From NCBI GenBank assembly GCA_027365345.1, contig DAHXNO010000135.1, forward strand, positions 1 to 54,288: a DNA stretch of 54,288 bases. The letters run 5' to 3'. Positions 5,290-53,327 of the stretch are shown here, one piece after another (within the stretch, counting starts at the first letter, position 1; the number at the start of each line of letters is the position of its first letter). A model generated the notes under the pieces. The model searched no databases. It had not been told where the DNA came from and worked only from the letters and a program-made list of their open reading frames with translations. The position numbers and the translations under genes were made by a program. Source of the stretch: Granulicella sp. GTDB taxonomy: Bacteria; Acidobacteriota; Terriglobia; Terriglobales; Acidobacteriaceae.

Positions 5290-7926
5290 ATGGCCATCAA
5301 GTGGGACAAGTTCACGGTGAAGTCGCAGGAGGCGCTGCAGGCGGCGCAGAGCAGCGCGGCGGAGAATGGGAATCCAGAGGTGTTGCCGCTGCATCTGATG
5401 GCGGCGCTGCTGCAGGACAAGGAGGGTGTGGTGCGCGCGGTCCTGGAGAAGGTGGGCGTGGCCGTGCCGCAGTTGCAGACCACGCTGCTGGGCGCCATTG
5501 CGAAGCTTCCCAAGGTGCAGGGCGCAGCGCAGCAGCCGGGGATGAGCGCGGAGCTGACCCGGGTGCTGGAGGGAGCCTTCCACGAAGCCTCTACCTTTAA
5601 GGACGACTACGTCTCCACGGAGCATCTGCTGCTCTCCCTGGCCAGGCAGAGGCAAGGGCCGGTACAACTGGCGCTGACGGCTGAAGGAGCCGACCATGCG
5701 GCGATTCTGAAGGCGCTGCAGGCGGTGCGTGGGTCGCAGCGCGTCACCGACCAGAACCCGGAGGGCAAGTTCCAGGCTCTGGAGAAGTATGCCAAGGATC
5801 TGACCGAGATGGCGCGGCGCGGCAAGTTGGATCCGGTGATCGGCCGGGACGAGGAGATCCGGCGCGTCATTCAAGTGCTCAGCCGCCGGACCAAGAATAA
5901 CCCGGTGCTGATTGGGGAGCCTGGGGTTGGCAAGACGGCCATTGTGGAGGGTCTGGCGCGCAGGATCTTTCAGGGCGATGTGCCGGAGGTGCTGCGGGAG
6001 AAGCGCGTTATCTCGCTGGACCTGGGATCGATGCTGGCCGGGGCCAAGTTCCGGGGTGAGTTTGAGGATCGGCTCAAGGCGGTGCTCAAAGAGATCGAAG
6101 AGTCCAACGGCCAGATCATTCTGTTCATCGACGAGCTGCATACGTTGGTGGGCGCCGGAGCGGCGGAGGGGGCCATCGACGCCAGTAATATGTTGAAGCC
6201 TGCCTTAGCTCGCGGAGAGCTGCGCGCCATTGGAGCCACCACGCTCAATGAGTACAGGAAGTACATCGAGAAGGATGCGGCGCTGGAGCGGCGCTTCCAG
6301 ATCGTCTTTGTGGGCGAGCCCAACGTGGAGGATACGATCGCGATTCTGCGCGGCCTTCGGGAGCGCTATGAGACGCACCATAAGGTGCGCATCAAGGACT
6401 CGGCGCTGGTGGCCGCGGCTGAACTCTCTCACCGCTATATCTCTGACCGCTTCCTTCCGGACAAGGCGATTGATCTGGTCGATGAGGCTGCGGCGGCGCT
6501 TGCCATCCAGATCGGCAGCGTGCCGGTGGAGATCGATGATCTGGAACGGCGCTCCATCAGCCTGGAGATTGAGCGCAACGCGCTGAAGCGCGAGAAGGAT
6601 GCCAACTCCCGCGAGCGCCTGGAGGAGGTGGATCGCGAGCTGGCCGGTCTGCGCGAACAGATCGCCGCTCTGCGCGCGCGCTGGCAGAAGGAGAAGGGCG
6701 CCATCGGCGAGGTAGCCGCGCTCAAGCAGCGGCTGGAGCAGATGCGCTTTCAGGCCGCCGAGGCCACCCGCAAGGGCGACCTTCAGCGGGCTGCCGAGCT
6801 GCAGTACGGCGAGATTCCCAAGGCGGAAAAGGAGCTGGCGGCGCTCACCCAGAGCCAGGACGCCGGCGCGGCGGACGCCCGCTCCGGCCACGCCACCCGC
6901 CTGCTCAAAGAGGAGGTGGATGAGGAGGACGTGGCCCGGATCGTCTCCAAGTGGACGGGAATTCCGGTAGCCCGGATGCTGGAGGGTGAGGTGCAGAAGC
7001 TCACCCAGATGGAAGATCGTCTGCGGCGGCGAGTGATCGGCCAGGACGAGGCGCTGATTGCCGTGGCCAACGCGATTCGGCGCTCGCGCGCGGGGCTGAG
7101 CGATCCGCGGCGTCCCATCGGCTCCTTCATCTTTTTGGGGCCTACCGGCGTGGGCAAGACGGAGACGGCCCGCGCGCTGGCGGAGTTCCTGTTCGATGAC
7201 GAGCAGGCGATGGTGCGGATCGACATGAGCGAGTACATGGAGCGCCACGCCGTAGCGCGTCTGATTGGCGCGCCTCCCGGCTATGTGGGCTACGATGAGG
7301 GCGGGCAGCTCACCGAGGCGGTGCGGCGGCGGCCTTACTCAGTGGTGCTCTTTGATGAGATTGAAAAGGCGCATCCGGATGTCTTCCACGTGCTGTTGCA
7401 GGTGTTGGATGACGGGCGGCTGACGGACTCCAAGGGAAGAACCGTGGACTTCAAGAATACGGTGCTGATCATGACGTCCAACATCGGCGCCGGCCATCTG
7501 GCCACTGTCTGGGCTAAGGGTCAGGAGGGTTTTGCAGACGCCACAGTGCGGGTGCTGGAGGAGCTGCGCCAGCACTTCCGTCCGGAGTTTCTCAATCGCG
7601 TGGATGAGATGGTGGTCTTCCATCCGCTGGCCGAATCGCAGCTTGCGCACATCGTGGACCTGCGGGTTGCGGACCTGGAGAAGCTGCTGGCGGACCGGCA
7701 TATCAGCCTGGAGCTGACCGATGCGGCGCGCAAGGCGATCTTCAAAGCCGGCTACGATCCAGCCTATGGTGCGCGGCCCCTGAAGCGGGCGATTCAGCGC
7801 CTGGTGCAGGACAAGCTGGCGATCAGGATCCTGGACGGCACGGTGCTGCACGGCGACCACGTAGTGGTGGACGCAGGCGCGGAGGGGCTGGAGTTCAACG
7901 TCCAGCGCCCCGCGCCCGCGGCGTAA
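5290..7926 (+). CDS. clpB: ATP-dependent disaggregase ClpB
   Basis: The Hsp100 chaperone that extracts polypeptides from aggregates with DnaK. The domain order is complete over 878 residues: N-terminal Clp repeat domain (~1-145), first AAA+ module with Walker A GEPGVGKT at 209-216 and Walker B LFIDELH, the coiled-coil middle domain (~400-530, rich in Arg/Glu/Leu) that distinguishes ClpB from ClpA/ClpC, and the second AAA+ module with GPTGVGKTE around 617 and [14 protein letters not shown]. The ClpP-docking loop of ClpA/X is not apparent. The start is set by AGGAGGAGAGCGAG before the ATG. Downstream of the small heat-shock gene, so this is a heat-shock locus. Confidence 0.98.
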
Positions 7927-9034: not shown

Positions 9035-10639
9035 GTGTTGACCGGCACCGAAACGAAACAAGCATCTTCTCCATGGCTGCGGCTTCTCTTGCTCTTCGGA
9101 ATGTCCGTGGCTGTTGCCCTGCTGTTTGACTATGCGCTCAGTTGCCTTCTCTACGCTCGTCCGGGCTCGGACTCAGCCTGGCTTCTCTACGTGGCCGACC
9201 GCGTGTTGGCTGGAGCACGGCTTTACAGCCCAAGCATTACAGAGACAAATCCGCCCCTGATCGTCTGGTTCTCTGTGATTCCCGATCTTCTGGCACGGTG
9301 GCTTCCTTTTTCGCCGCTCCTGATTCTGAAGATCCTTGTGGCGGCGATGGTCTGCGCCGGCGCTGCGTGGTGTGCGCGAATTCTGTATGCTGCAAAGCTT
9401 GCCGCATCGCCACTGCTGCTTGGCCTCAGCTTCTGCGCTGTGGCCGCTGTGGAGGTTTCACGCGATCTGCTCGGCTATGGCCAGTTTGGCCAGCGCGAGC
9501 AGCTTGTGGTCATCCTGGTGTTGCCCTACCTGCTCTACGCAGCGTGCGGATCCAAACTGAAACTCGGCCTGGCGGAACGTATTGCGCTTGGCGCGGCCGC
9601 CGGCTGCGGCATCTGCGTCAAACCCCAGCAGATACTCCTTCTTGCCGCCGCCGAGCTTCTCCTCCTGCTGTGGACCCGTGATCTTCACCGCTTGAAGCGC
9701 GCCGAGCTTTTTGCAACCGCACTCACGGTCTGCGCCTATGTCCTTGCTGTCGCTCTGGCTACAAGCTATTACAGCCAGATGGTCCCACTCCTGAAGGACA
9801 CCTACTGGGCTTATGCGGATACCAGTAAGCTCGTACTCCTTCGCTCCGTATTGCTGGACTGGAGGGTTTGGCTGACCTTGGTTATCTGGTTAGGCGTCGG
9901 GAGATACCTCAAGCATCCTGCCGCGCCCCTCGCTCTTCTGGCTGCGGGTCTTGGCGCCGGGCTCGCGTATTGCATCCAGGGCACGGCCTGGGCCTATCAC
10001 CTATTCCCGTCGGAGGCCCTTCTTTATTGTGCGCTTGGATGGATGGCGCTCGATCTGCTTTCAACCGTGGCGGAGCCCACAGCCCCCCGCACTCTGGTCT
10101 TTGCCGGCCTGGCGCTTGTTCTTGTGGCCGTTTCGCTCCCCGCGTTCCTCGCCCGCGAGCGGCGTCAGCTTCTGCTGGCGGAGAAATATAGGTCGCCGCT
10201 CTCGTATTTGCTGGCGCAATACCCGCCACAGACCCCGGTCTACGTCTTTTCGACCAGCCTTGGTGAGTTCACCGATATCTTTCAGAACCGCCTTGTTTGG
10301 GGAAGCCGCTACGCCCACCTTTGGTTGCTTCCGGCAATCGTAGAGAACGAACGCGCGCTCTCCGGTGGCGCTCCGGCGCGCAAGACTCTTCCACCGGTCC
10401 GAGTGCGCGAGCTGGCCGTCATGCAGAGGTCCAATACAGCCGAAGACCTGCGCAGATGGAAGCCCAGATTTGTCATCGTGGAGCACTGCAGTCCCGCGGT
10501 TCCCTGCCAGGCCCTCGGCGCTATGAGCTTTGATCTGCTGCAGTGGTTTCTGGAGTCGCGGAGCTTCGCTGCGGAGTGGTCACACTACCAGCTACAATCC
10601 AGCGGCAGATTTTTCGACGTCTACCAACGGATTCCATAG
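9035..10639 (+). CDS. polytopic membrane protein, GT-C glycosyltransferase-like
   Basis: A 534-residue integral membrane protein with around a dozen hydrophobic segments. The first outward loop (residues ~38-75) carries acidic and proline-rich features seen in GT-C enzymes that use polyprenyl-phosphate sugars: PGSDSAWLLYVADRVLAG, then ETNPPLIVWF. A soluble C-terminal part (from ~385) includes YVFSTSLGEFTDIF and a cysteine pair in EHCSPAVPC. GTG at 9035 is the start, with GGAGG 7 bases upstream. The sugar and acceptor are unknown; assignment to GT-C rests on topology and loop features, not on a named family match. It begins a run of five such large membrane proteins. Confidence 0.6.
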   Translation: MLTGTETKQASSPWLRLLLLFGMSVAVALLFDYALSCLLYARPGSDSAWLLYVADRVLAGARLYSPSITETNPPLIVWFSVIPDLLARWLPFSPLLILKILVAAMVCAGAAWCARILYAAKLAASPLLLGLSFCAVAAVEVSRDLLGYGQFGQREQLVVILVLPYLLYAACGSKLKLGLAERIALGAAAGCGICVKPQQILLLAAAELLLLLWTRDLHRLKRAELFATALTVCAYVLAVALATSYYSQMVPLLKDTYWAYADTSKLVLLRSVLLDWRVWLTLVIWLGVGRYLKHPAAPLALLAAGLGAGLAYCIQGTAWAYHLFPSEALLYCALGWMALDLLSTVAEPTAPRTLVFAGLALVLVAVSLPAFLARERRQLLLAEKYRSPLSYLLAQYPPQTPVYVFSTSLGEFTDIFQNRLVWGSRYAHLWLLPAIVENERALSGGAPARKTLPPVRVRELAVMQRSNTAEDLRRWKPRFVIVEHCSPAVPCQALGAMSFDLLQWFLESRSFAAEWSHYQLQSSGRFFDVYQRIP

Positions 10640-10924
10640 GCCGGTCACAGCTCTGACGGCGTGGTGTTGCGAATCCGATCCTGGTGGCCACAGACCCACG
10701 TTTCGGTGTGGCTACGGGGGCCCCAATTGGGTTGTGATAGAAAGGAGGGGGTTAACAGCGTATGGGCTCGGGCGGGTGCCACCAAACTTGTTTATGGCGG
10801 TGGACAGCCGCACGGAAGCGGGCCGGGCAGCGGAATTGAAGGTGCGGGAATGACCGGCGTACGCCTTCGGAGTGTCCTGCGCTGCCCGCTGGTTATCGCG
10901 CCCCGGTTGAAGGGACGGCGCTGA

Positions 10925-12244
10925 ATGGGACGGAGCAACGTGATCCACGCTGTCAACGGGGCTATGCGGTCAGCAGAGCCGTGCGGAATAGAGCGCACGT
11001 TCTTTGCACTCTACCTGTTGTTCATCGCCTTGTATTCGATAGGGTTTAACGCGTTAATGTTGCGTGAAAACAACCCATACATTCTTGGGGACTGGCTGAT
11101 CAATTACAGCGGCGGGTTTGTCCGCCGTGGCCTGACCGGTGCGCTGGCGCTGATAGTACACGACATGACGGGAGTTCCGCTGGCGTGGGTGGTATTTGCG
11201 ATGCAGGTGAGCATCTTTCTGTTGTTCCTGGCTTGCGTGTACAGATTGTCAAAGGGAATTCGCTGGTCGTATCTGATGATAGCGGTGCTGTTGTCGCCTG
11301 CGACGCTGACCTTTACGGTCATGGACCCCTATGCCTCCGGCCTCCGGAAAGAAATTCTGCTGTTTGCCGCACTGGCGTTCGCGTTGTGCGTGCTTCTATC
11401 CGGCAGGCTGAAAGACTGGCAGCTGAGCGCCATGTTGAGCCTGATGCTGGTTGGGCTGGCTCTCTCGCATGAGGCTCTGATGATTGGAGTCCCCTATTTC
11501 TTTGCGGCTGTAGCGATCCAGACAAACAGCCCTCGGAGGGCTTTGAGAATCTGTGCGGCGCCGCTGGCTCTGGGCGGAGCGGCATTTCTGGCGGCTTTGC
11601 TCCGCCACGGAGATTTAGCTGTGGCGCAGACGATTTGCAGTTCAGTGGGCGGGACGCTGGGACCGTTTGTCAGACCTGGGACGCGTTTGCCGAGCAACGA
11701 TATCTGCAGTGGAGCTATCCAATTCCTGCCGCTGAGCCTCTTCCAGGCGCGCATGATGATTGCGCCCATGATTCGACAGTGGGGCCTGGTTCGGCTTTTC
11801 TGCCTGCTGGCGATTCCCACTTTTGTGCCGCTGATTGGGCAGTTTGCGCTGTTTTGTCGAGACGACAGGTTGCGCTTTGAGGTGGGCACGGTGCTTGGGT
11901 GTGCGCTGGCGTCGCTGCCGGCTACGGGGCTCCTGTTTTATTGCGGGCTGGACTGGGGACGCTGGATCCACATCCAGGCGATCTGCTTGATGCTTATGGC
12001 GATGCTGATTTCCCATCGGGCGGCAGTTGTCGCGGGAAAGGCGGGGCCGGCGAGGAGCCGCAATCCCTGGATTCATGCGGCAGCGTCGTCGGCAGTGCTT
12101 TTGTACGCGACCACATGGATGCTGCCGGCCGTTGGCGACCACGGAGAAAGACCCGGTTACCTGGATGTCGCACGGACCTTGCGTCACCTTCACCTACCGC
12201 CGCCCACCGCTCCGGGAGGGCCGATGAAGCTGGACCTGCACTGA
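10925..12244 (+). CDS. polytopic membrane protein of a polysaccharide locus
   Basis: A 439-residue protein with about ten hydrophobic segments. A conserved-looking loop follows the first segment, GDWLINYSGGFVRRGLTG (~57-74), a pattern seen in uncharacterised membrane proteins near glycosyltransferase genes. Function unknown; it may be a GT-C-like transferase or a polymerase. ATG at 10925 is used; a second ATG at 10964 (MRSAEPCG) is just as plausible. The 285 bases before it contain no supported gene. Confidence 0.6.
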   Translation: MGRSNVIHAVNGAMRSAEPCGIERTFFALYLLFIALYSIGFNALMLRENNPYILGDWLINYSGGFVRRGLTGALALIVHDMTGVPLAWVVFAMQVSIFLLFLACVYRLSKGIRWSYLMIAVLLSPATLTFTVMDPYASGLRKEILLFAALAFALCVLLSGRLKDWQLSAMLSLMLVGLALSHEALMIGVPYFFAAVAIQTNSPRRALRICAAPLALGGAAFLAALLRHGDLAVAQTICSSVGGTLGPFVRPGTRLPSNDICSGAIQFLPLSLFQARMMIAPMIRQWGLVRLFCLLAIPTFVPLIGQFALFCRDDRLRFEVGTVLGCALASLPATGLLFYCGLDWGRWIHIQAICLMLMAMLISHRAAVVAGKAGPARSRNPWIHAAASSAVLLYATTWMLPAVGDHGERPGYLDVARTLRHLHLPPPTAPGGPMKLDLH

Positions 12245-12309
12245 GTTCTGCGGCAGCAGGCGCTGGAATTGAGGGAGGCGCGGTGAGACGGATGGGAGTG
12301 GACCTGTAC

Positions 12310-12323
12310 CTGCCAATTGGCAG
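12310..12323. other. perfect 14-bp palindrome
   Basis: CTGCCAATTGGCAG is a perfect dyad in the 182-base gap between two convergent membrane-protein genes. No promoter is expected in this position, so it is either chance, a repeat fragment or part of a terminator structure. Confidence 0.3.
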
Positions 12324-12426
12324 CGCGCGGCGGGGTAGCCATCGGCGTCTTTGCCGGGATCGCAGGGCCGGGCGGACCGAGACGGTCAGCGTGCCGGAGT
12401 TCGACTTTGACACGATGAGAGCGTTC

Positions 12427-14172
12427 TCAGCGATCGCGAACGCGATTTTGCTGCCCGCTCCACTTGACCGACCGCACAAGGTAAGACGAGGGGTTGAAGC
12501 CGGGGTAGAACGCGGCCCAAAAGATCTGGAACTGGCGCTGGATCGCAGCCCGGAACCGCGAGTCTTTGCGGATGGCGATGCCATAGTTACCAGCGTCCGC
12601 GTACACGTCGTATTGGGCAAGCAGGGCCGGGTCAGAGAAGAGCACGCCGCGCTGGTAGGTGTAACTCGTGTTGGGCATCCAGATCAGGTCAGGCTTGCGC
12701 TTGAGGAAGCTCGCCACCTGGAAGCCGTGCAGAGCGATCTGCGGATCGTTGAGGCCGGCCATGTCGATGACGTTGGCGTGGGAGGCGCGCTCACCCAGAT
12801 AGCCGACCTCCGTGGAGGCGACGGTGACGCCAGGGGGCAGAGGAGCGATCAAATCGTCGGTGATGGCCAGCATCATCGGTTGCCACTCATAGGTTGGGAG
12901 CGGAGCTGTGGCCACGATGCGGAGCTGGGCAGGATCGTACTCGACGTGGTGACCGTGTTCAAGGAGCCGGAACTTCCGCTGCACCGCCTGCGAATGGAAG
13001 AGAAGGAAGAAGATCAGAAGCACGGCAACCACCGCGCCCCGGCTGCGTAGCGTGTTCCCCGGCCACGCATCGCTCTCTGCTGAACCCTGAGCCAGCCAGC
13101 GATCCAGCACCAGAACAGCGGGAACCACCAGCAGCGGCGCATACGGGACGTAGTAGCGGCTGTCAAAGCCCATGATCTGTGTCACCGTTCCCAGATAGGC
13201 GAATACCAGCGCGGCCGGTATCAGCCCGGAGAGCACCAGCCGCAGGTCGCGCCGGCGGGCGAGAAGAACCAGCGCGGCGACGAAGAGCTGCAGGGCGCTG
13301 AGGAAGGCGATGAGCATTAGGCTGGGATACCAGACGTCCGCATAGCCCCGGTAGGCGTTGCCGCCCTTCATATGCACGCTGAGCGGAACTGGCGTGCCGA
13401 AGTACAGCCGGCAGAGAGCCAGCTCCAGCAGGACCCCGGCGCAGAAGACCCCGTAGAGAAGGACGAACGACCGGAGCGGGGGCCGCCCCTCGCGGCGAGT
13501 CTTCTCATCGCCAAACGGTCCGGTGGGCAGCCAGCCCACCAGCGCAGGGAGCAGCAGCGTTACGAGCCCGGACTCCGGGCGGGCCAGGAACAGCAGAACC
13601 CCCACTCCCCCTGCCACGGTGGGAGGTATGCGGCCGGCGCGCCACAGCAGGCAGAGCCCCAGGAACAAGGCGCAGAGAGCGGTGGCCAGCATCGTCTCCA
13701 TGCCGTTGAACTGGTCGCCCTGGAAGAGCGTGGAGGCAAACAGCGGCGCCGCAATCAGCGCCAGCGTGAGCAGCGGCCTGCGCAGCCAGGTGCTCTGAGC
13801 ATTGGCCGTGACGGCCCAGGCCATCGCGATCACCGCGGCGATGGAACATGCCCAGGAGCCGAGCAGGAGCTGGGTCCAGGGGTCAGTCGGCAGATAGCTC
13901 AGCAGCAGGACGCAGAAGCTCCACAACAGCGAGGTGGGCCCATAGGTGTGTACGCCGTTCAGGTTCCAGGAAAAGCCAAGCCCGTGGCGAATGTTATGGA
14001 CGTAGCGCAGGAACATGTAAGCGTCGTCGAAGCTGAGCTTGTCGCGGCGCACCACCATCAATCTCTCGATGGAGGTGGCAGCGGCCTGCGCGAGTAACAG
14101 AGCCGCCGCCAAGTCGATAAGCCGACGCCGTCCGTCAACTTGCCTCGGCTTCTCCAGGCTGCTGTTCTCCAC
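12427..14172 (-). CDS. GT-C glycosyltransferase with arabinofuranosyltransferase-like first loop
   Basis: A polytopic membrane protein of about 581 residues. Its first periplasmic loop reads SFDDAYMFLRYVHNIRHG then GFSWNLNGVHTYGPTSLLW. This matches the pattern DDA-x4-RY-x2-N-x3-G-G-x3-N-x7-G-x-(T/S)-x-LW that I know from GT-C enzymes using decaprenyl-phospho-arabinofuranose (AftB-like proteins) and their unassigned relatives. The paired aspartates at ~49-50 are the expected catalytic/metal site. The frame opens at a TTG (14193), but GGAGG at 14179-14183 lies 6 bases before GTG at 14172, so that start is chosen. It sits 84 bases downstream of a second GT-C gene and the UbiA-family gene, on the same strand and probably in one operon. 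Confidence 0.68.
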   Translation of the reverse strand: MENSSLEKPRQVDGRRRLIDLAAALLLAQAAATSIERLMVVRRDKLSFDDAYMFLRYVHNIRHGLGFSWNLNGVHTYGPTSLLWSFCVLLLSYLPTDPWTQLLLGSWACSIAAVIAMAWAVTANAQSTWLRRPLLTLALIAAPLFASTLFQGDQFNGMETMLATALCALFLGLCLLWRAGRIPPTVAGGVGVLLFLARPESGLVTLLLPALVGWLPTGPFGDEKTRREGRPPLRSFVLLYGVFCAGVLLELALCRLYFGTPVPLSVHMKGGNAYRGYADVWYPSLMLIAFLSALQLFVAALVLLARRRDLRLVLSGLIPAALVFAYLGTVTQIMGFDSRYYVPYAPLLVVPAVLVLDRWLAQGSAESDAWPGNTLRSRGAVVAVLLIFFLLFHSQAVQRKFRLLEHGHHVEYDPAQLRIVATAPLPTYEWQPMMLAITDDLIAPLPPGVTVASTEVGYLGERASHANVIDMAGLNDPQIALHGFQVASFLKRKPDLIWMPNTSYTYQRGVLFSDPALLAQYDVYADAGNYGIAIRKDSRFRAAIQRQFQIFWAAFYPGFNPSSYLVRSVKWSGQQNRVRDR

Positions 14173-14256
14173 TTGTTTCCTCCGGGTATTCAATTCCTTG
14201 GCGTCGATTCGGCGTTACTCTTTGCTTCCGTCGCTGATCCGCCCTTGCCTGCGCGG

Positions 14257-15873
14257 CTAGCGGACAGAGGCGGACCGATTCCTCGTTGCGCCCTGCGGCC
14301 ATTCTACGGATAGAGCCTCGCCGCCGAAGCAGGGGCCCAGCGGAGAGACAATGGCGTCTTCAGCGGCGGCGGCCTCCGCGGTCCAGTTCCAGCCGTCCCG
14401 CCACTGGACCAGCAGATGCGGGCCGGGTTGTCGGATCACCTGATCGTAGTTCACCACCGGCAGCCGGGTGAAGTGGCGGAGGTTGCGGGCGGCGATGGAG
14501 TAGGTGTCGTGTTGCAGCCAGAGAACCTCCTGGCCGGCGTTGTAGAGCAGGGTGATGCGGCTGCGCAGGGCGGAGTCGGGCGTGTAATAGGAGTCGACGA
14601 AGAAGTTGCCCAGGCTCTGCTCGTAAAGCGGCTCGCCAGGATGCGCGGCCAGCGCCGCGGCCAGCGCTGGAGACGGCCGCAGGCTGGCCAGCAGAGCGGC
14701 GGAGTCCTTGCGCTCGTTCCGGATGTTGTGCAGGTTGACGGCCAACGCGGCGGCGGTGATCAGGGCCAGCGCCGCATAGTAGAAGGCGTTGCTGCGCAGC
14801 CTGCGCTCCAGCACGATGCCGAAGGTGGCGGCAAAGGCGATAAGCGCCGCGATGACGTAGCGAACCTCCATCGTGTGGGTGACAAAGCGGCCAAAGAGAT
14901 ATCCGAAGAAGGGTAAGAGCGCCGTGGAGGCCAGCGCTACCCAGATAGAAGCGGATTCATTCGCCGGACGGCGCTGGGAGCGTCTCCAGCCGGCCCAGGC
15001 CAGCGTCAGGGCCAGGATCAGCAGGATGGCGGCGGCCATCCGCTGCAGCGGTATGGGCCAGGTGGTGTAGCGCAGAAAGAGCTCACGATAGCCTTGGCTG
15101 ACGTCGTGAATGTTCACCCCGGTGATGTAGTAGTGCCGCCGGTAGACCATCAGGGCGGCGCGGAAGGGAAGAATCAGGCCAACCGAGGCCAGGCCCAGCG
15201 CCAGGGCCGTGACGACTCCCGCGTCGATGCGCCTGCGGATCAGGCTGCGGGAGAGTTCGCCCAGGGTTACGGGAATCAGGATCAGCACGCCGAAGTAATG
15301 GCTGGTGATGGCCAGGGCGATGGAGAGAGTTAAACCGGCCAAAGGAAGCAGGCGCGAACCGTCCCGGCTCTCCTCGCGTGAGCCGGCTTCTGCCGGGGGC
15401 TGTGTTGCGATCTGCCAGCAGAGCAGCGAAAGGGCGTAGAGGCCCAGCAGCAGGCCGTAGGGCCGTCCCTCCAGCGAGTAGCGGAAGCTGGCCGTGCAGA
15501 GGGGCACGGCCATGGCCACAATGGCGGCATGCTCCCCGGCCAGGCGGCGAACCAGAAAGAAGAGGCAGAGTTGGAAGAGCAGAAATCCGCCCAGCGCGGG
15601 CAGGCGCAGCGCCATCGCGTTGCGTCCGAGCAGGTCCATACACAGATGGGAGAGCAGATGGTAGGTGGGAGGGTCCAGCGAGATCGGGTGGTGGAGCTGG
15701 ACCAGGATCACCTGTTGGAAGCTGGCCACGCCGTCCGAGTAGAAGGAGAGAAACTCATCGTTCCACATCAGGCGGACGTGCGACCAGAGCAGAGAGAGCG
15801 AGGCGCTGAGCAGCAGGAAGAAGGCGGGCAGCAGATAGGAGCCGGCGTTTGCTCTGGAAGGGGGCGGCTTCAT
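14257..15873 (-). CDS. GT-C glycosyltransferase (GT39/ArnT-like)
   Basis: A 538-residue polytopic protein. The first loop has the acidic WNDEFLSF, typical of GT39/ArnT-like enzymes that take sugar from a polyprenyl phosphate, followed by SLDPPTYHLLSH and, later, EGRPYGLLLGL. The frame is open to 15891, but ATG at 15873 has GGGGAGG four bases upstream and overlaps the stop of the UbiA-family gene as ATGA, so this is the likely start. It is clearly paralogous to the divergent gene at 17212-18885 (shared LRLPA, CLF-x-VRRLA, RPYGL, NIR-x-ER). Specificity unknown; coupling to a phosphoribosyltransferase-like gene suggests a pentofuranose donor. Confidence 0.72.
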   Translation of the reverse strand: MKPPPSRANAGSYLLPAFFLLLSASLSLLWSHVRLMWNDEFLSFYSDGVASFQQVILVQLHHPISLDPPTYHLLSHLCMDLLGRNAMALRLPALGGFLLFQLCLFFLVRRLAGEHAAIVAMAVPLCTASFRYSLEGRPYGLLLGLYALSLLCWQIATQPPAEAGSREESRDGSRLLPLAGLTLSIALAITSHYFGVLILIPVTLGELSRSLIRRRIDAGVVTALALGLASVGLILPFRAALMVYRRHYYITGVNIHDVSQGYRELFLRYTTWPIPLQRMAAAILLILALTLAWAGWRRSQRRPANESASIWVALASTALLPFFGYLFGRFVTHTMEVRYVIAALIAFAATFGIVLERRLRSNAFYYAALALITAAALAVNLHNIRNERKDSAALLASLRPSPALAAALAAHPGEPLYEQSLGNFFVDSYYTPDSALRSRITLLYNAGQEVLWLQHDTYSIAARNLRHFTRLPVVNYDQVIRQPGPHLLVQWRDGWNWTAEAAAAEDAIVSPLGPCFGGEALSVEWPQGATRNRSASVR

Positions 15874-17006
15874 GCAACCTCCCCGTTCCATGCGATCCTC
15901 TCCGCGGACGCCTTCCGGAGCCGCTGCTGGTCCCAGCGCGCGGCCACGGCTGGAGACCTCTGACGAAGCGGAAGCAGCACGAGAGTGGAACGTGAGACGG
16001 TTGCCGGGGTCGCCTGCCGCAACGAGGAGGTAGTGGTAGGCAGGGTAGGAAGAAAGATCTGCTCCAGACGCGGTAGGCGCAGAAACAGCAGAATGCCCAT
16101 CACCAGCACGGTTGCGGAGAAGGAGGCCATCAGCAGCGGCTCACGATAGAGCTTCTCCGGGTTCTGCACCGCGCTATCCGGTTTGAAGGCTAGCCGCAGG
16201 TAGATGGCCATAGTGAGCGCGACCAGAGGAAAGCTGAGGATCAGCTCGATACGGTAGCGGATGATAAAGGCACCCAGAAAGAGCATCGCCGCAGAGGCGT
16301 AAAAGACCACGGAGACCAGCAGAGACTCTGGCGTGTAGCGCTTGAAGGAGGCACGATAGGCTCCGGCCAGCCCGTGGTCACCGGAGTGGTGCAGTTCAGA
16401 GAGTTCGCTGAAGCGCTTGAGGGCCATAAAGTAGCAGCCGATCATCCAGTAGGCCAACAGAAGAGACACGGGCGGGATCAGCACACGGGTGACGGCGTAC
16501 CAACCCAGCAGCATGCGCAGCGGGTTGTTGATGGACTCGGTGAGGACGTCCAGGTAGGGAACGTCCTTGGTGCGGATGGGCGGGAAGTTGTACAGGCAGC
16601 CCATGATCCACAGGATCAGCGCCACCAGGGCAAAGATTCTGGAGATGGTGAGGGCGATTGCGATGCCGGCGGCCATCATCAACAGCCACTGGGCGTAGGC
16701 CCAGGGGATGCTCACCAGGCCGCACGCTGCGGGACGGTTCTTCTTGATGGGATGCAGACGGTCGAAGGGAGCGTCCAGCACCTCGTTGATCACGTAGTTG
16801 CTGCACGCCACCAGGGTGATGGAGACCAGGGCCAGAACCAGGGTGCGGATCAGGTGCAGGTTGAACAGCGCCGGGTCAACGCTCAAGGGGACGATAACGC
16901 CGGGCAGGACGAAGAGGTTCTTGATCGAGTGGTCCAGCCGGGCGATGGCGAGGTGAGCTCTGAGCCGGTCTCGAACCGGTAGGCTGGTGCGCTCGCGTTG
17001 AGACAT
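15870..17006 (-). CDS. UbiA-family decaprenyl-phosphate phosphoribosyltransferase-like protein
   Basis: A membrane prenyl-acceptor transferase. The best match is the DPPR synthase branch of UbiA, which joins PRPP to decaprenyl phosphate in the first step toward decaprenyl-phospho-arabinose. Evidence: RLDHSIKNLFVLPGV (~23-37); N74-E-V-L-D78-x3-D82-R-x-H85-P-x-K88 followed by RPAACG, aligning with the family's NDxxDxxxD-R-x-HP-x-K-x2-RP-x-A-x-G; then YLDVLTES, FMALKRFSEL and YTPESLL at the expected spacings. The usual second motif Asp is Glu here (NE for ND). The length of 378 exceeds the ~300 usual for the family because of a ~65-residue Pro/Arg/Ser-rich C-terminal tail whose end overlaps the next gene by four bases. 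Other UbiA enzymes (quinone or heme) fit the HPxKxxRP signature less well. Confidence 0.8.
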   Translation of the reverse strand: MSQRERTSLPVRDRLRAHLAIARLDHSIKNLFVLPGVIVPLSVDPALFNLHLIRTLVLALVSITLVACSNYVINEVLDAPFDRLHPIKKNRPAACGLVSIPWAYAQWLLMMAAGIAIALTISRIFALVALILWIMGCLYNFPPIRTKDVPYLDVLTESINNPLRMLLGWYAVTRVLIPPVSLLLAYWMIGCYFMALKRFSELSELHHSGDHGLAGAYRASFKRYTPESLLVSVVFYASAAMLFLGAFIIRYRIELILSFPLVALTMAIYLRLAFKPDSAVQNPEKLYREPLLMASFSATVLVMGILLFLRLPRLEQIFLPTLPTTTSSLRQATPATVSRSTLVLLPLRQRSPAVAARWDQQRLRKASAERIAWNGEVA

Positions 17007-17048
17007 CGGCAGGGTGCTCCCGGGGGCGTTTTCGTCGGCTACTGATGG

Positions 17049-17087
17049 AGAGTATAGCGTGGGGGTCTGCGGCGGACGATATACTCT
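17049..17087. promoter_or_regulatory. mirror-image -10 boxes between divergent glycan genes
   Basis: AGAGTATA (17049-17056) and TATACTCT (17080-17087) form a perfect 8-bp inverted repeat with a 23-base centre. Each arm reads TATACT toward its own gene: the UbiA-family gene on the minus strand (leader of about 40 bases) and the GT-C paralogue on the plus strand (about 120 bases). Matching -35 boxes are poor, so this could instead be one operator. Confidence 0.4.
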
Positions 17088-17211
17088 ATGCTATTGCGCA
17101 AAGCTCAGGGCCGGGGCAGGTCTGGTCCAGCGTCGATCCTGTGGTGAGGGAAATCTCTGATTCGTATGTCTATCCCGGTTCGTTCCTCCGTCTCTATGCC
17201 TGCCTCCTTCT

Positions 17212-18885
17212 ATGCCGTCCAACACTGACCGTCCAGATATGGCTGGAGGGAGACCCTCCCTTCGAATCGCGGGGATGCCGGCCGCGGCGATCGCATTGCT
17301 TCTGCTCTCGGCGGCGGTTGCGTTGGTGCGTTCCCACTATCAAGTTCTGGGAGTGGACGAGTATGGATTCGGCTTGCTGGACTTTGACCGTGACTCCAGC
17401 CTTTTCCGCCTGCTCCATGTGCAACTGACCACACCGCTCTCCCTGGACCCCATCGGTTACAACGTTCTGGAATACGCTCTGATTCAACTGTTCGGCAAGG
17501 GCGCATTCGTGCTGCGGCTGCCGGCAATCGCTGGGTACCTGGTGATGCAGGCGTGTCTATTTTATTTTGTGCGCCGGCTTGCGGATGAAAAGGCCGCAAC
17601 CGTTGCGCTGGCCATCCCCGCGCTGGCCGGAACCGTGGTCTATAGCGCAGTCTCTCGGCCCTACGGCCTGTGGCTGGGCCTCTCGGCGCTGGCGATGCTG
17701 TGTTGGCAAACCGCCGCCCGTCAGCATCTCCGGCGGACTGCCGCGCTCGTTGGCCTGGCGCTGTCCCTGGTTGCGGTGGTGAACACGCAGTATTATGCGG
17801 TTCTGCTTTTCGTTCCCCTGTGTGCAGGGGAAGCTGTCCGCTGCCTGGAGAGGAAGGCGGTTGATTTCCCGGTCCTCGCGTCGCTCTTGATAGGAATGTC
17901 CGGCCTCCTGATTGGCTTGCCGTTTGTAAAGGCTACCGCTCCTTTTCGCGCGCTTCACACCCCAATCGACAACCCCTCCATTCACTTCATCCCCCACGCC
18001 TATCTGTGGCTAGTGGTGGGTTTTGCTGCCTTAAGCGTGCGCGCCCAACATCTGATTGGCCTCGGCACCGCCCTCTTGCTGCTGGCTTTGGCCGCCGGAT
18101 TTGTACGTCTCCGTTCGCGAGTGGTGCTGCGGCTCCCCTCCGCCGAGCTGGTCTTTCTGTTGTTGCTCTCCGCGTTTCCGCTCCTGGGGTACGTGTTGGC
18201 GCTTGCTGCTACGCACTATGTGGAGGGACGTTTTATTCAGCCCGCCGTCATCGGTATGGCAGCTCTGCTGGCCATCCTGGCGGCGCCTCTGCTGCAGCAA
18301 AGGTCGGTCGGCCGCGTGGTTCCCTGGCTGCTGTTTCTCGCCATCGCCGGAACGGGGGCAGCGAATATCCGCACCGAGAGAAGCCGCTCGCGGAGCATGT
18401 TGGCATCATTGATTCCGGACCGGGCGACTCAGGCCAGCCTGGATCAATTCCGTGGCAGGCCGATTTATTGTGTGAATCACTTCCAATTCGAGTTCATCCA
18501 TTACTACTCGCCAAGCCCGGAGATCCGGTCTCGGGTCACGCTGGTCGCCCCAAGGCCCTCGGACTTTCCGAATGGCCCGGGCGCGGATGTATCCAGACAG
18601 ACGGCCAATATGGTGGTGGATGGCCTGCCAAACGTGGTGACGTATGCAGCGGCCTCGCAACCTGGCACAGAGAACCTGTTTCTCTTTCCTGACTATCCGG
18701 ATGACTGGTCCGTTCGCGCCCTGGCAGACTCCCATGCCCGGATTGAGCCAGTGGGAAAGATTTTAGCGTCCATGCTGGCATCCGTTCACTTTCCGCCGGC
18801 GGCAGAGGCAGAGCCGGGTAACTCCGCAGCGACTCCTGTCAGTCCGCCGCCTCCGAACTCGGCTCGGGAGATAGACTCTCGGTAG
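17212..18885 (+). CDS. GT-C glycosyltransferase, paralogue of the 14257-15873 gene
   Basis: A 557-residue polytopic membrane protein. It has the acidic VDEYGF in the first loop and TPLSLDPIGYNVLEY, LRLPAIAGYL, CLFYFVRRLADE, SRPYGLWLGL and NIRTERSRS, each with a counterpart in the gene at 14257-15873, so the two arose by duplication. A difference: the glutamate before RPYGL in the paralogue (EGRPYG) is valine-serine here (VSRPYG), which may mean a changed substrate. The C-terminal soluble part (~390-557) is longer and ends in a Pro-rich tail. No ribosome binding site is obvious at ATG 17212; ATGs at 17239 and 17275 are alternatives. Divergent from the UbiA-family gene. Confidence 0.68.
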   Translation: MPSNTDRPDMAGGRPSLRIAGMPAAAIALLLLSAAVALVRSHYQVLGVDEYGFGLLDFDRDSSLFRLLHVQLTTPLSLDPIGYNVLEYALIQLFGKGAFVLRLPAIAGYLVMQACLFYFVRRLADEKAATVALAIPALAGTVVYSAVSRPYGLWLGLSALAMLCWQTAARQHLRRTAALVGLALSLVAVVNTQYYAVLLFVPLCAGEAVRCLERKAVDFPVLASLLIGMSGLLIGLPFVKATAPFRALHTPIDNPSIHFIPHAYLWLVVGFAALSVRAQHLIGLGTALLLLALAAGFVRLRSRVVLRLPSAELVFLLLLSAFPLLGYVLALAATHYVEGRFIQPAVIGMAALLAILAAPLLQQRSVGRVVPWLLFLAIAGTGAANIRTERSRSRSMLASLIPDRATQASLDQFRGRPIYCVNHFQFEFIHYYSPSPEIRSRVTLVAPRPSDFPNGPGADVSRQTANMVVDGLPNVVTYAAASQPGTENLFLFPDYPDDWSVRALADSHARIEPVGKILASMLASVHFPPAAEAEPGNSAATPVSPPPPNSAREIDSR

Positions 18886-18927
18886 AGTGCAGCAGAGAAA
18901 GTTCGGGCCGGATAAGCTAATGTAATT

Positions 18928-18952
18928 GGGAGTTCCCCCGGCTTTGCCGGGG
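18928..18952. repeat. intergenic palindromic repeat, copy A
   Basis: GGGAGTTCCCC followed by a hairpin: CCCCGGC (18936-18942), loop TTT, GCCGGGG (18946-18952). The first 11 bases recur exactly at 41473-41483, and the hairpin core recurs at 19108-19126, so this belongs to a dispersed family. Confidence 0.65.
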
Positions 18953-19077
18953 AGGCAGTCAAACTTTGAGGATTCCGGGAGTATGCCCCCCAGTTGTTGC
19001 AATTCGGGTTGCAACTGGCTTCCGCACAGTAAAATTCTTGCATTTGCGGTTGCTGTTGCTTTTCACGGTTGCGATCA

Positions 19078-19094
19078 GGCCCCTTTGAGGGGCC
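19078..19094. repeat. palindrome GGCCCC-TTTGA-GGGGCC
   Basis: Perfect 6-bp arms around a 5-base loop, 13 bases before the next palindrome. It is part of the same repeat-rich block. Confidence 0.55.
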
Positions 19095-19101
19095 AGCAAC
19101 C

Positions 19102-19134
19102 GTAAAGCCCCCGGCTCTGCCGGGGGATATTTAC
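19102..19134. repeat. intergenic palindromic repeat, copy B
   Basis: CCCCCGGC (19108-19115), loop TCT, GCCGGGGG (19119-19126): a perfect 8-bp stem. Flanking GTAAA (19102-19106) and TTTAC (19130-19134) extend the dyad. The core matches copy A except for the loop. Confidence 0.65.
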
Positions 19135-19231
19135 TTTTGGAGATGGGGCTGGGCTGTGGGTTCCGGCCCAGGAAGCGGCCAGAGGTGCGGAAGAGCCAGA
19201 ACACGGCAGAACCGGAGCGCAGAAGAATTGC

Positions 19232-20983
19232 ATGAAGAAAGCGATTGTGATCGGAGCTGGGCCGGCGGGGCTGACCGCGGCGCTGGAGTTTCTGCGCCGC
19301 ACCGGCGTGCAGCCCATTGTGCTGGAGGCATCCGAAGAGATCGGCGGAATCTCCCGGACCATCCGCTATAAGGGCAACCGCATGGATATCGGCGGCCATC
19401 GGTTCTTCTCCAAAAGCGACCGCGTGATGCAGTGGTGGATGGACCTGATGCCGGTGGAGCAGGCGGAAGGGCCTGTGGAGGTGAGTTACCAGGGGCAGCA
19501 GAAGACCGTGGTCGTGCCGGTGGCCGTGGAAGAGGAGCCTCCGCTGCGCGGTATGGGACCGCTGGAGGCTGCAGCGAGCCGGGTCGCGGACGCCGGTGCC
19601 AAAGAGGTGAGCGCCGAGGAGTTGGCCGAGCACGTGCCGACTGTGACTGTGGTGGCCCCGGCGGCTGCGAAGAGCGACGACCTGGTGATGCTGGTGCGGC
19701 CGCGAAAGAGCCGGATCTACTACCTGCGCAAGTTCTTCGACTACCCCATCAAGCTGAATGGAACCACGCTCTCCAATCTGGGCCCGCTGCGAATGATCCG
19801 GATCGGCGTCAGTTATGTGAACAGCCGCCTGCGGCCCATCCAGGAAGAAAAGAGCCTGGAAGACTTCCTGATCAACCGCTTTGGGCGGGAGCTCTATCTT
19901 ACCTTCTTCAAGAGCTATACCGAGAAGGTCTGGGGAACTCCCTGCCATACCATCTCAGCGGAGTGGGGAGCGCAGAGGATCAAGGGGTTGAGCCTTACGA
20001 CGGCGCTCAAGCACTTTGTACGCAAGCTGCTTTCGCCCCGGAGCGGCGGACCGGCGCGGGCGCAAGACGCCGGCGGTCAGGCTGGCGCACGAACTGCCGC
20101 GCAAGACATCGCCCAGAAGGGCACCGATACCTCACTCATCGAGCGTTTTCTCTACCCCAAGTTCGGCCCGGGGCAGCTCTGGGAGCACGTTGCGGAACGG
20201 GTCACTGCGATGGGCGGCGAGATCCACATGGGATGGAAGGTAGTAGGGGTGGAGGTGGAGGGAACGCGCGTGACCGCGGTCGAGGCCAGCAACGCGGCCG
20301 GGGAGCGCCGCCGGTTTGCGGGAGACTACTTCCTCTCCACGATGCCGATGCGCGACCTGGTGCGGGCGTTGCGGGTGGAGGTTCCAGCCTCTGTGCGGGA
20401 GGTGAGCGAGGGGCTTGAGTATCGGGACTTTATCACCGTGGGCGTGCTGGCCAACCGGCTGGACGTCACGGAGACGGACAAGACGCGGATCAAGGACACG
20501 TGGATCTACATTCAGGAGCCGGATGTTCTTCTGGGCCGGCTGCAGATCTTCAATAACTGGAGCCCGTACATGGTCTCCGATCCCACCAAGGTGTGGATTG
20601 GCCTGGAGTACTTCTGCTATGAGAGCGATCCGCTCTGGAGCATGCCGGATGAGGAGTTGAAGCGGTTTGCCGCCGGCGAGCTGGAAAAGATCGGCATCCT
20701 GAGCACCCGCGAGGTGCTGGACGCCCATGTGGTGCGGGTGCCCAAAACCTATCCTGCGTACTTTGGAACCTATAACCGGTTTGCCGAGTTGCGCGAGTGG
20801 ATCGATCGCTTTGACAATCTGTTTCTGGTGGGCCGCAACGGCATGCACAAGTACAACAACCAGGACCACTCGATGCTTACCGCCATGGCTGTGGTGGATG
20901 GAATCGCCGCCGGCTTTGTGGATAAGGATGCGGTGTGGGGAATCAACTCTGAGCAGGAGTACCACGAGGAGAAGAAGACCTAG
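19232..20983 (+). CDS. FAD-dependent oxidoreductase, UDP-galactopyranose-mutase/HemY-like
   Basis: A 583-residue flavoprotein. The dinucleotide-binding motif IGAGPAG is at 7-13, followed by LEASEEIGG. Further family motifs are [32 protein letters not shown] and the C-terminal FAD motif [19 protein letters not shown]. This set is typical of COG1232 proteins often found beside glycosyltransferase genes and loosely related to UDP-galactopyranose mutase. The reaction is not established; rearrangement or oxidation of a sugar donor is an inference from context. It has two low-complexity insertions, at about residues 87-150 (Glu/Ala/Val-rich) and 270-295 (Gly/Ala/Arg-rich), that look species-specific. 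The preceding 346 bases are full of palindromic repeats. Confidence 0.75.
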
Positions 20984-22358: not shown

Positions 22359-23339
22359 TCAAATATGTTGCCATTCGAGGGCGGCTGAGGGGTTCTCGGC
22401 GCGCGGCGGGAGGGCCGGCTGCGGCTCATCCTCATTTTGGTAACGGTGGGTCAGCTCCCACGCGGAGCGATCGCGGAGCAGCTTCTGCACCAGCGCGGTA
22501 TGCATGGCGTGGCCGGCGCGCTCCGCTACCACGCGGCCCCAGATGCGGCGGCCGGCCAGAGCCAAGTCTCCGATCAGGTCCAGGACCTTATGGCGGACAA
22601 ACTCATCCGGGAAGCGTAGCGGCCCGTTGAGCACTGAGCCCGGCCGGGCAGGCGTCGTGCGGGAGACGATGATGGCGCAGCCGTCCGAGACGCCGCGGAT
22701 CAACCCCATATCGCGCAGCATCGCCTCGTCCTCTTTGAAGCCGAAGGTGCGCGCCGGAGCAATCAGGTCGGTGTAGGCCCCGGCCTCCAGATCGCCAATA
22801 AAGGCGTCATGCCCAATGGGCTCCGGAAAGTCGATGGAGTAGTGAATGGAGTAGCCGTCGCCGGGATAGACGCCGATAAACTTTTCCGTTGCCCCGGAGC
22901 CCTCCCGCACCTCAACCGGCTTCAGGATGCGTAGATACTCGCGCTTGCGGCGCTGGAGCTTGAGGCCGGCGGCAAGGATCGCCGACACATACGGCAGGGC
23001 GCTGCCGTCAAGGATGGGAACCTCAAGGTTGTCCAGCTCCACAATCAGGTTGTCCACGCCCAGGCCGATCAGGGCGGAGAGCAGGTGCTCCGTAGTCTGG
23101 ATCAGCACTCCCTGGCGGGTGAGGGAGGTGGCGTAGGAGACGCGAGCCACGTTGCGTCCAGTGGCGGGGATCTCAAAGTTGTCCAGGTCAGAGCGCCGGA
23201 ACACTATCCCCGACCCCGCCGGCGCGGGCACCAGACGCATCGTTACGGCCGCCCCGGAGTGCAAGCCAATCCCTTGAAAATCCAGAGCTTGCTGAATCGT
23301 CTGTTCGAATTGAGGATAACGGGACAGAAAACGCTCCAC
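22359..23339 (-). CDS. lpxC: UDP-3-O-acyl-N-acetylglucosamine deacetylase
   Basis: The zinc deacetylase that commits UDP-acyl-GlcNAc to lipid A synthesis, so the organism makes a lipid A-based outer membrane. All metal and catalytic positions are present: TTEH85, H250-K-V-L-D254 and G-H277-AMH, with the same spacings as E. coli H79, H238, D242 and H265. The N-terminal signature TIQQALDFQGIGLHSG is intact. At 326 residues it has a ~30-residue tail beyond the catalytic core. The only start upstream of the conserved region is GTG at 23339, without a clear ribosome binding site. Confidence 0.96.
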   Translation of the reverse strand: MERFLSRYPQFEQTIQQALDFQGIGLHSGAAVTMRLVPAPAGSGIVFRRSDLDNFEIPATGRNVARVSYATSLTRQGVLIQTTEHLLSALIGLGVDNLIVELDNLEVPILDGSALPYVSAILAAGLKLQRRKREYLRILKPVEVREGSGATEKFIGVYPGDGYSIHYSIDFPEPIGHDAFIGDLEAGAYTDLIAPARTFGFKEDEAMLRDMGLIRGVSDGCAIIVSRTTPARPGSVLNGPLRFPDEFVRHKVLDLIGDLALAGRRIWGRVVAERAGHAMHTALVQKLLRDRSAWELTHRYQNEDEPQPALPPRAENPSAALEWQHI

Positions 23340-30149: not shown

Positions 30150-30199
30150 GGTTGCCGGCGAACTCGGTTCGTTCGCTATCCTCTTCTGTGAGGTGCAAG

Positions 30200-31711
30200 A
30201 TGGCCTATGACCAGATTCAACATGTCTTCGTTTTAATGTTGGAGAACCGCTCCTTCGATCATCTGCTGGGCTACTCCGGCCTCGCTGGGACCGACGCGGC
30301 CACCGGCCTTCCCGCCTCCATCGATGGGCTCACGGGAACGGAACAGAATATGGTTGACGGCGTAGCCTATCCGGTCACAGAGCCGGCGGATTACACCCTG
30401 AGCGTGGATCCCAGCCATGAGTTTCCCGATGTGCTCTGCCAACTGGCCGGCGCCGGCGCCGTTTACCCTCCCGGAGGCAGCTACCCTGCGATCGATAACT
30501 CGGGTTACGCCGTCTCCTACGCCGATGCCTGCATCAAGGCGAGACAGCCCATCGCGCCGGGCGAGATCCTGAAGTGCTACTCGGCCAGCCAGCTTCCTGT
30601 GCTTACAGCGCTGGCCACAGAGTTTGCCGTCTGTGACAACTGGCACGCTGCGCTGCCTGGTCCAACCTGGCCCAACCGGATGTTTGTGCATGCCGCCTCC
30701 TCTGCCGGACTCGATCACAGTCCAAGCGCCGCGGAGATCGCACTGTGGGAGTCAGTCTCAGGGTTCTCCTTTCCGAACGGAGACATCTTTGACCGCATCG
30801 CCGCCAGGAATGGAATGCGCTGGCGCGCCTACGCCGGAGATCTCTTCCCGATGATCTCGGCGCTCAAGGGCATCACCCTCGGCGATGTTCGCCAGTACGA
30901 CCACTTCGCATCCGACCTGGAAGGCCCGTTCCCCTATAACTATGTCTTCATCGAGCCCAGTTACAACCTGCTCCGCGACTATAAAGGCAGCACCTCGCAA
31001 CATCCGCTGGACGATGTACGGCTCGGCGAAGGACTGATCAAATCAACCTATGAGGCCATCCGAAACTCGTCCCTTTGGCAAAACAGTCTGTTGATCGTGA
31101 CCTGGGACGAGCATGGCGGCTTCTACGATCATGCGATCCCGCCGTCGGCTGTGGCCCCGGGCGATACCCAGCCCTCCACGGGATACAACAAGTACGGATT
31201 CACCTTTGAACAGTATGGGCCGCGCGTCCCGGGGATCGTCGTCTCGCCCTGGATTCCACGCCAGACCATCGATCACCGCTTGTACGATCACTCTTCTGTG
31301 CCGGCAACGCTGGAGGCGTTGTTTGGCCTGGCTCCGATGACGGCACGGGACGCCGCTGCAAACCATCTGCTCCCTCTGCTCTCGTTAGCAGAGGCGCGTC
31401 AGGATGCGCCGCGCACCCTTCCCGACCCGTTTGCGGGGCCAGAGGCTCCGATGCTTGCTCCCGCCACGCCCCTCGCCGAGAGCTACGCCGCTGCGACGCC
31501 TCCCAGCCGGCCGAATGACTCCATCAACGATGGAAACCTGCCTGTGATCTTGCAGGCAGCGATGCGCCAGGACTTCGAACTTTCGCCGGCAACCAGCCGC
31601 GCCGCGATCATCGCCAAGGTAGCAGCGCTCAAGACCCGCGCCGATGCGGCGACGTATCTTGCGGAAGTGGCCGCGAAGCGTCGGGCCTCCACAGCGCATC
31701 CGCTCAGCTAG
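30200..31711 (+). CDS. phosphoesterase family protein (phospholipase C/acid phosphatase type)
   Basis: A 503-residue member of the bacterial phospholipase C/AcpA phosphoesterase family, which cleaves phosphodiesters or phosphomonoesters. The N-terminal signature VFVLMLENRSFDHLLGY contains the metal and nucleophile region. Later motifs are WPNRMFVHAASSAG, FIEPSYN, LLIVTWDEHGGFYDH and RVPGIVVSPWI, matching the alkaline-phosphatase-like core. ATG at 30200 (MAYDQIQH) has GAGGT five bases upstream and is preferred to the open frame from 30152. There is no obvious signal peptide with this start, unusual for a family usually exported. It ends in an Ala-rich extension of ~60 residues. Confidence 0.88.
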   Translation: MAYDQIQHVFVLMLENRSFDHLLGYSGLAGTDAATGLPASIDGLTGTEQNMVDGVAYPVTEPADYTLSVDPSHEFPDVLCQLAGAGAVYPPGGSYPAIDNSGYAVSYADACIKARQPIAPGEILKCYSASQLPVLTALATEFAVCDNWHAALPGPTWPNRMFVHAASSAGLDHSPSAAEIALWESVSGFSFPNGDIFDRIAARNGMRWRAYAGDLFPMISALKGITLGDVRQYDHFASDLEGPFPYNYVFIEPSYNLLRDYKGSTSQHPLDDVRLGEGLIKSTYEAIRNSSLWQNSLLIVTWDEHGGFYDHAIPPSAVAPGDTQPSTGYNKYGFTFEQYGPRVPGIVVSPWIPRQTIDHRLYDHSSVPATLEALFGLAPMTARDAAANHLLPLLSLAEARQDAPRTLPDPFAGPEAPMLAPATPLAESYAAATPPSRPNDSINDGNLPVILQAAMRQDFELSPATSRAAIIAKVAALKTRADAATYLAEVAAKRRASTAHPLS

Positions 31712-44322: not shown

Positions 44323-44346
44323 AGGCTTCACCCTCCGTTGACAGGC

Positions 44347-51552: not shown

Positions 51553-51633
51553 GGCGTCCTGGACCGTGCGCTGCGCTTCACGCGGCGCACCACAGATGAC
51601 ACTTGTTTGGAAAGCTCCCTGGCTGACAGGGGA

Positions 51634-53076: not shown

Positions 53077-53327
53077 CAAGTCTGCCGCAGGTTGAGCGAG
53101 GCTTCGCGCAGCAGTCTTCCAGCTTCACTGGAATCTCTAGTTTACGGCAACTGCTCTCTGGCCGTGGCCGACCCGCATTGGCACTGGGCCGTAGAGTCTG
53201 GGGCCGCGCAGCATCAGTTCGTTGCTCAGGGTGCAAGGCCTGGCAGCCGCCGGGTTCATCGCCCGCGCTGGGCTGCGAGTCTTCTTGCCCGGCCTCCAGA
53301 AACACCTCGCGGTGGCTCCCAGAAGCC

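Follow-up and report, generated by a model that had tools for sequence, protein, structure and literature searches.

Polyprenyl-phosphoribose synthases (PPPRS) that operate together with a flippase and a C-type glycosyltransferase (GT-C) form a widespread kind of system, published in 2024 (PMC11127046). In the three-component set of Citrobacter youngae O1/O2, a HAD-UbiA protein (ORF15) is accompanied by a flippase (ORF14) and a GT136 enzyme (ORF12), and the pilin arabinosylation of Pseudomonas aeruginosa, as cited in the same source, is a proposed Gram-negative case in which a PPPRS serves a GT-C, to which the locus described here may be likened by description. Here we analyze a stretch of 54,288 nucleotides from Granulicella sp. 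(contig DAHXNO010000135.1, C175 in our numbering; hereafter the window), part of a draft genome of 4.2 Mb in 208 contigs, in which a UbiA gene lies among GT-C genes at positions 9035-20983. On balance, judging from sequence and predicted structure, this locus is probably a lipid-linked pentofuranose glycosylation module with ribofuranose as the default sugar, and by analogy its nearest described kind is most likely the three-component system. An initial annotation, made from the sequence alone, had taken the glycan and its acceptor to be undescribed; the kind of system, at any rate, is already described in PMC11127046. Like the Citrobacter set, the window has a UbiA of the type using phosphoribosyl pyrophosphate (PRPP) beside GT-C genes, and genes for a HAD phosphatase and a flippase-like protein join the same run in some relatives. 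Unlike that set, the window UbiA is unfused to HAD and falls outside the HAD-UbiA group, the cluster holds no flippase or HAD match, and its GT-Cs are PMT_2 and AftB-related.

The UbiA protein belongs to the Pfam UbiA family (E 2.4e-20), and in NCBIfam, where all its matches lie below the model cut-offs, PRK08238 (2e-26) and decaprenyl-phosphate phosphoribosyltransferase (DPPR synthase, 3.8e-21) are followed at lower ranks by the prenyltransferase PRK12884 (1.1e-9), chlorophyll synthase (8e-8) and heme O synthase (3.8e-7), with 4-hydroxybenzoate octaprenyltransferase reaching 6e-4 at best. The phosphoribosyltransferase type initially assigned is backed by this order, in which DPPR synthase stands above the heme O and 4-hydroxybenzoate models. 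The best PDB sequence is that of mycobacterial Rv3806c (8j8j, E 9.6e-10). A structural comparison with this enzyme, proposed along with the initial annotation, gave a congruent picture: donor-bound Rv3806c (8j8j_A) is the top match of the AlphaFold model (predicted local distance difference test, pLDDT, 89.9), with Z 26.7 and a root-mean-square deviation of 2.8 A over 285 residues, the best match to any other protein being an archaeal UbiA at Z 23.5.

The HPxKxxRP signature of DPPR synthases is likewise present, as part of NExxDxxxDRxHPxKxxRP from residue 74 onward. In Rv3806c, the pyrophosphate is contacted by R22, K87, R90, Y138 and K143, with K208 adding charge, Mg is liganded by N73 and D77, the 5'-phosphate is contacted by K28, Y70 and Y157 (the effect of Y157 being moderate), and the ribose by N73 and Q135 (PMC10994848). 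Counterparts of R22, K28, Y70, N73, D77, K87 and R90 are invariant in all 46 rows of an alignment (A1) comprising 44 of 77 relative loci, the window and the genome's own HAD-UbiA protein, R22 being mapped by ungapped extension only. In sequence and modelled fold, the window UbiA is of the phosphoribosyltransferase type, with putative use of PRPP. That it should be an ordinary prenyltransferase of quinone, heme or isoprenoid synthesis, placed beside unrelated GT-C genes, is highly improbable. Superfamily membership and the PRK12884 match would suit such a role, as would a YNFPPxR loop that we take to resemble general UbiA proteins, but NCBIfam ranks DPPR synthase higher, counterparts of K28, Y70 and K87 are absent from another UbiA protein of the genome (L147, according to a residue table that does not include L148), and the UbiA gene overlaps a GT-C gene.

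This overlap was read directly. Because the minus strand at the junction reads GTTGCATGAAGCCG, the TGA stop of UbiA shares bases with an ATG of the GT-C gene, and the 4-base overlap makes the ATGA coupling of the two genes real, as initially annotated. A second possible start of the coupled GT-C frame lies 18 bases earlier, at 15891. All seven genes of the cluster, including the two additional polytopic proteins, are complete open frames placed as first described:

9035-10639, plus strand: polytopic protein, GT-C-like by look alone, 534 aa, 10 hydrophobic segments
10925-12244, plus strand: polytopic protein, 439 aa, 9 hydrophobic segments
12427-14193, minus strand: AftB-related GT-C with a DDAY motif, 588 aa, 8 hydrophobic segments
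14257-15873 (alternative start 15891), minus strand: PMT_2 (GT39-like) GT-C, ATGA-coupled to UbiA, 544 aa counted from 15891, 8 hydrophobic segments
15870-17006, minus strand: UbiA-fold, polyprenyl-phosphate phosphoribosyltransferase-like protein (hereafter the window type), 378 aa, 8 hydrophobic segments
17212-18885, plus strand: divergent PMT_2 GT-C paralogue, 557 aa, 8 hydrophobic segments
19232-20983, plus strand: flavin adenine dinucleotide (FAD) oxidoreductase of the PRK07208 family, 583 aa, 0 hydrophobic segments

The genome holds four PF01040 members, one of which is a HAD-UbiA fusion on contig C177 (PRK08238, 575 bits, cut-off 351) with an architecture like that of Citrobacter ORF15 (PMC11127046). 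In an 18-row tree, Rv3806c, represented by a long-branched fragment of 246 residues, groups with this fusion and three HAD-UbiA proteins from relatives, without the window type (98/97). This first tree also contained L147 and an archaeal UbiA, both on very long branches, the latter beside the Rv3806c group (82/62) with the window-type rows as an unresolved set; after both were left out, the rebuilt, unrooted tree separates the same five rows from 11 window-type rows at 100/99. Ten of the 77 relatives are represented in the trees, which include neither L148, the genome's fourth UbiA protein, nor any functionally characterised enzyme of heme or quinone synthesis; in them the partner of Rv3806c in this genome is the C177 fusion rather than the window UbiA. 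By record title, relatives of the window type belong to Acidobacteria, Planctomycetes, Gammaproteobacteria, Nitrospira and further groups, where titles of metagenome-assembled genomes can be wrong, and the closest are titled Acidobacteria bacterium and Granulicella. Literature searches, which did not extend to the supplementary species lists of PMC11127046, returned no description of the window-type UbiA.

A genome search for DprE1 and DprE2, the second check named in the initial annotation, found both on contig C127, the first gene of which is a DprE1 homologue truncated at the contig end (PDB DprE1, E 4.4e-72; NF053785, 337 bits, cut-off 500), followed by DprE2 (NF053786, 207.6 bits, cut-off 250). 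As far as could be tested, neither a quinone- or heme-like UbiA nor a lack of DprE1/DprE2, both of which the annotation had listed as speaking against it, was found. To place these genes, samples of 120 family genomes and 297 phylum genomes were used, many of them drafts, so that linked genes split between contigs go unnoticed. Of the 120 family genomes, 11 have a window-type UbiA (E < 1e-100) and 37 have DprE1 (E < 1e-50). With an open frame of at least 480 aa as stand-in, HAD-UbiA was found in 33 of the 37 DprE1-positive genomes, DprE1 lying within 5 kb of it in 22, and three relatives (L109, L110 and L111) display the order HAD-UbiA, DprE1, DprE2, the last cut off in L111. DprE1 is apart from the window-type UbiA, on another contig or more than 20 kb away, in all nine genomes having both, and is absent from the flanks of all 77 window-type loci, several of these flanks being short.

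With DprE1 linked to the fusion in relatives, and Rv3806c grouping with the C177 fusion, the initial reading of the gene cluster as a decaprenyl-phospho-arabinose locus is not supported. Its likeness to the mycobacterial pathway lies in the Rv3806c fold and most of the PRPP residues, the AftB relative in the cluster and DprE1/DprE2 in the genome, but the window UbiA is outside the Rv3806c group and DprE1/DprE2 are unlinked, in relatives standing beside HAD-UbiA. The HAD-UbiA/DprE1/DprE2 run belongs to the same bacterial family, and related chemistry is expected of it, yet it is a separate locus, the parts of which are found in this genome on C177 and C127. As the window UbiA lies outside the Rv3806c/fusion group and DprE1 is tied to the fusion, the locus is better read as a second lipid-linked pentofuranose module. 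More tentatively, at somewhat less than even confidence, the window type may be a second branch of sugar-phosphate UbiA enzymes, such that one cell would run two polyprenyl-phospho-pentose lines, each with its own GT-Cs: HAD-UbiA with DprE1/DprE2 for arabinofuranose, and the window UbiA for another sugar, distinct from decaprenyl-phospho-arabinose.

Among the GT-Cs, the UbiA-coupled protein (PF13231, PMT_2, 3.6e-07) and the 17212-18885 protein (1.1e-06) both score over the cut-off, in agreement with the GT39-like label first given to the former, and the two are 32% identical across 505 aa (E 4e-57, with eight proteins in the search set), so that the divergent copy is a paralogue as annotated; a PMT_2 profile (A4) gave no PDB match at E 0.1. 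The 12427-14193 protein has no Pfam family, and its PDB searches gave chance matches only with the protein alone and none with an 8-row profile. A profile of 24 relatives (A3, with 20 of 26 relative open reading frames and four others, the window copy itself being among the six left out) retrieved AftB (9dlf/9dlh) at E 1.5e-32, the next match being at 0.33. In AftB, D62 of the DD motif is catalytic, and T91, E172, R221, R372 and T274 contact the donor (PMC12041299). Five of these six residues are kept, D62, T91, E172, R221 and R372 corresponding to D57, T87, E166, R205 and R346, and T274 being replaced by S272; the DDAY loop occupies residues 56-59. Together with the profile match, this loop upholds the arabinofuranosyltransferase-like character initially noted, although fold comparison of a model of middling confidence (pLDDT 70.8) returned a GT-C fold without singling out AftB (PimE 17.6, ArnT 17.5, AftB 14.9). 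By sequence the protein is an AftB relative, its transfer of arabinofuranose being putative. The AftB-related family is broad (63 of 297 phylum genomes), and kinship with AftB therefore does not fix the sugar; the window copy alone as query finds relatives in four of 120 family genomes, its own counted. In L102, from a genome lacking any window-type UbiA match, an AftB-related GT-C sits between open reading frames that by look are GT-B-like and polysaccharide-export-like, a context that suggests use in exopolysaccharide.

The surroundings of the UbiA gene were compared in the 77 window-type loci, 72 of which are uncut downstream. A polytopic protein follows immediately in 35 of the 72, being a homologue of the PMT_2 GT-C in 20, and the 4-base overlap with the GT39-like homologue recurs in 13. 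A HAD phosphatase gene is found just upstream of UbiA in nine of the 77 loci, and in L081 a methyltransferase gene intervenes between the two. Two relatives assemble further components: L083 has the order flippase-like protein (PF01943, 28.8 bits, cut-off 28.2), HAD, UbiA, polytopic protein, and L080 the order UbiA, GtrA (PF04138), HAD, polytopic protein; these gene sets are the whole kit of the published system (PMC11127046). A methyltransferase gene adjoins UbiA in L044, L061, L081 and L104 and is one gene away in L042; its product, which may methylate the lipid-linked sugar or serve another step, has a Cys-rich start. In the same-genus locus L107, a gene that by look is GalE-like (5751-6833, plus strand; TGGSGFFG, YGKSK) stands between the flavoprotein and UbiA, with no relatives of its product in the other 90 sequences compared. 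It is a possible sugar-setting epimerase, which the window lacks. Were two pentose lines to coexist, this gene would set the identity of the sugar, by analogy with ORF13 of Citrobacter (PMC11127046). Extra paralogous proteins accompany the UbiA locus in L010, L012, L013 and L014 in numbers that vary between close relatives, as expected for a variable surface glycan.

For the substrate, phosphatase, flippase, sugar and acceptor, we infer the following course. With PRPP as donor, the window UbiA would load 5-phosphoribose onto a polyprenyl phosphate carrier, which is probably undecaprenyl phosphate. Removal of the 5'-phosphate would fall to a phosphatase encoded elsewhere in this genome, for which the HAD domain of the C177 fusion is a possible candidate, and some flippase would bring the lipid-linked sugar to the other side of the membrane. 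There, the pentofuranose would be passed to a periplasmic acceptor by the UbiA-coupled PMT_2 enzyme, perhaps together with the AftB-related protein and the 17212-18885 paralogue. Without an epimerase, such an enzyme would give ribofuranose by default, and DprE1/DprE2 acting in trans could convert part of it to arabinofuranose.

A number of observations weigh against this scheme. A directly downstream polytopic partner is missing by the same test from 37 of the 72 uncut loci. Among the cluster proteins, Pfam and NCBIfam gave no HAD match that could represent the 5'-phosphate phosphatase and no flippase family match, neither an Rv3807c-like phosphatase nor EmrE/MATE having been searched genome-wide; one GtrA is encoded elsewhere, on contig C8, and a PF04185 phosphoesterase at 30152-31711, 9 kb from the cluster, was not counted as a member. 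In the putative PRPP site, Q135 is G and Y157 is N in the window UbiA and all 11 window-type rows, D74 is E in all 11 rows, and K208 is A in the window UbiA, at a position variable among window-type rows; in Citrobacter ORF15, Ala at the Asp matching D74 left activity barely detectable (PMC11127046). Given these changes, the substrate of the window UbiA may differ. An explanation in which this enzyme works with a sugar donor other than PRPP or an acceptor other than undecaprenyl phosphate, the GT-Cs then transferring that other sugar, we regard as unlikely. The split of the window type from Rv3806c and HAD-UbiA in the tree and the methyltransferase genes near UbiA would agree with it, but most 5'-phosphate and pyrophosphate contacts (K28, Y70, R22, K87, R90) are kept, the neighbouring HAD phosphatases fit a phosphorylated product, and the HAD-UbiA fusions, which retain D74 and Y157, also lack Q135 (T in four of four).

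DprE1, finally, is enriched among window-type genomes (nine of 11 versus 28 of 109 others; Fisher 4e-4, uncorrected for kinship), which fits arabinose use. It is conceivable, if rather doubtful, that the window UbiA feeds DprE1/DprE2 and that the AftB-related and PMT_2 GT-Cs make D-arabinofuranosyl chains or caps. The presence of both enzymes on C127 and the conserved AftB residues favor such an arabinan, whereas DprE1 stands beside the window type in none of the 77 loci and none of the nine genomes, counts limited by drafts and short flanks, and Rv3806c sides with the fusion. Furthermore, two genomes (G008 and G042) combine a window-type UbiA with a single UbiA match each and weak DprE1 matches (1e-5 and 4e-5), where the query can miss fusions, as indicated by G095, which has DprE1 but one UbiA match. 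A ribofuranose-based module remains the reading we favor for the locus.

The flavoprotein at 19232-20983 had been labelled galactofuranose-mutase-like, which is wrong in the strict sense: it belongs to the amine-oxidase/UGM-like family NF005546/PRK07208 (812 bits, cut-off 418), and the canonical UDP-galactopyranose mutase, to which it is distantly similar, was rejected as an identity (TIGR00031, 31 bits versus a cut-off of 304), with no PF03275 GLF match in the genome. A homologue is present in 18 of the 77 window-type loci, and a literature word search for PRK07208 gave no paper. The polytopic proteins at 9035-10639 and 10925-12244 match no Pfam or NCBIfam family; homologues of the latter are found, partial and at 88%, at the end of L010 and, at 35%, in L037. 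The initial statement that GT-A and GT-B transferases are missing stands for the 28 window proteins (8 + 20) scanned, none of which has such a Pfam match, but does not extend to the remaining open reading frames, a ClpB-like one included, which lay outside the scan. LpxC is encoded at 22359-23339, consistent with a Gram-negative envelope. A GH127 protein, of the beta-L-arabinofuranosidase family and thus a furanose hydrolase, is encoded at 46441-48504 (minus strand), about 25 kb from the locus. Two long open reading frames, 41797-44331 (minus strand, 844 aa) and 51541-53487 (plus strand, 648 aa), have no Pfam match at 1e-5.

If the proposed reading is true, lipid-linked pentofuranose chemistry would be a regular feature in a Gram-negative family that is not noted for it, one genome having two entry enzymes. 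AftB-family enzymes would become open to comparison outside mycobacteria, and the DprE1/DprE2 pair of this family would be suggested to belong to another locus.

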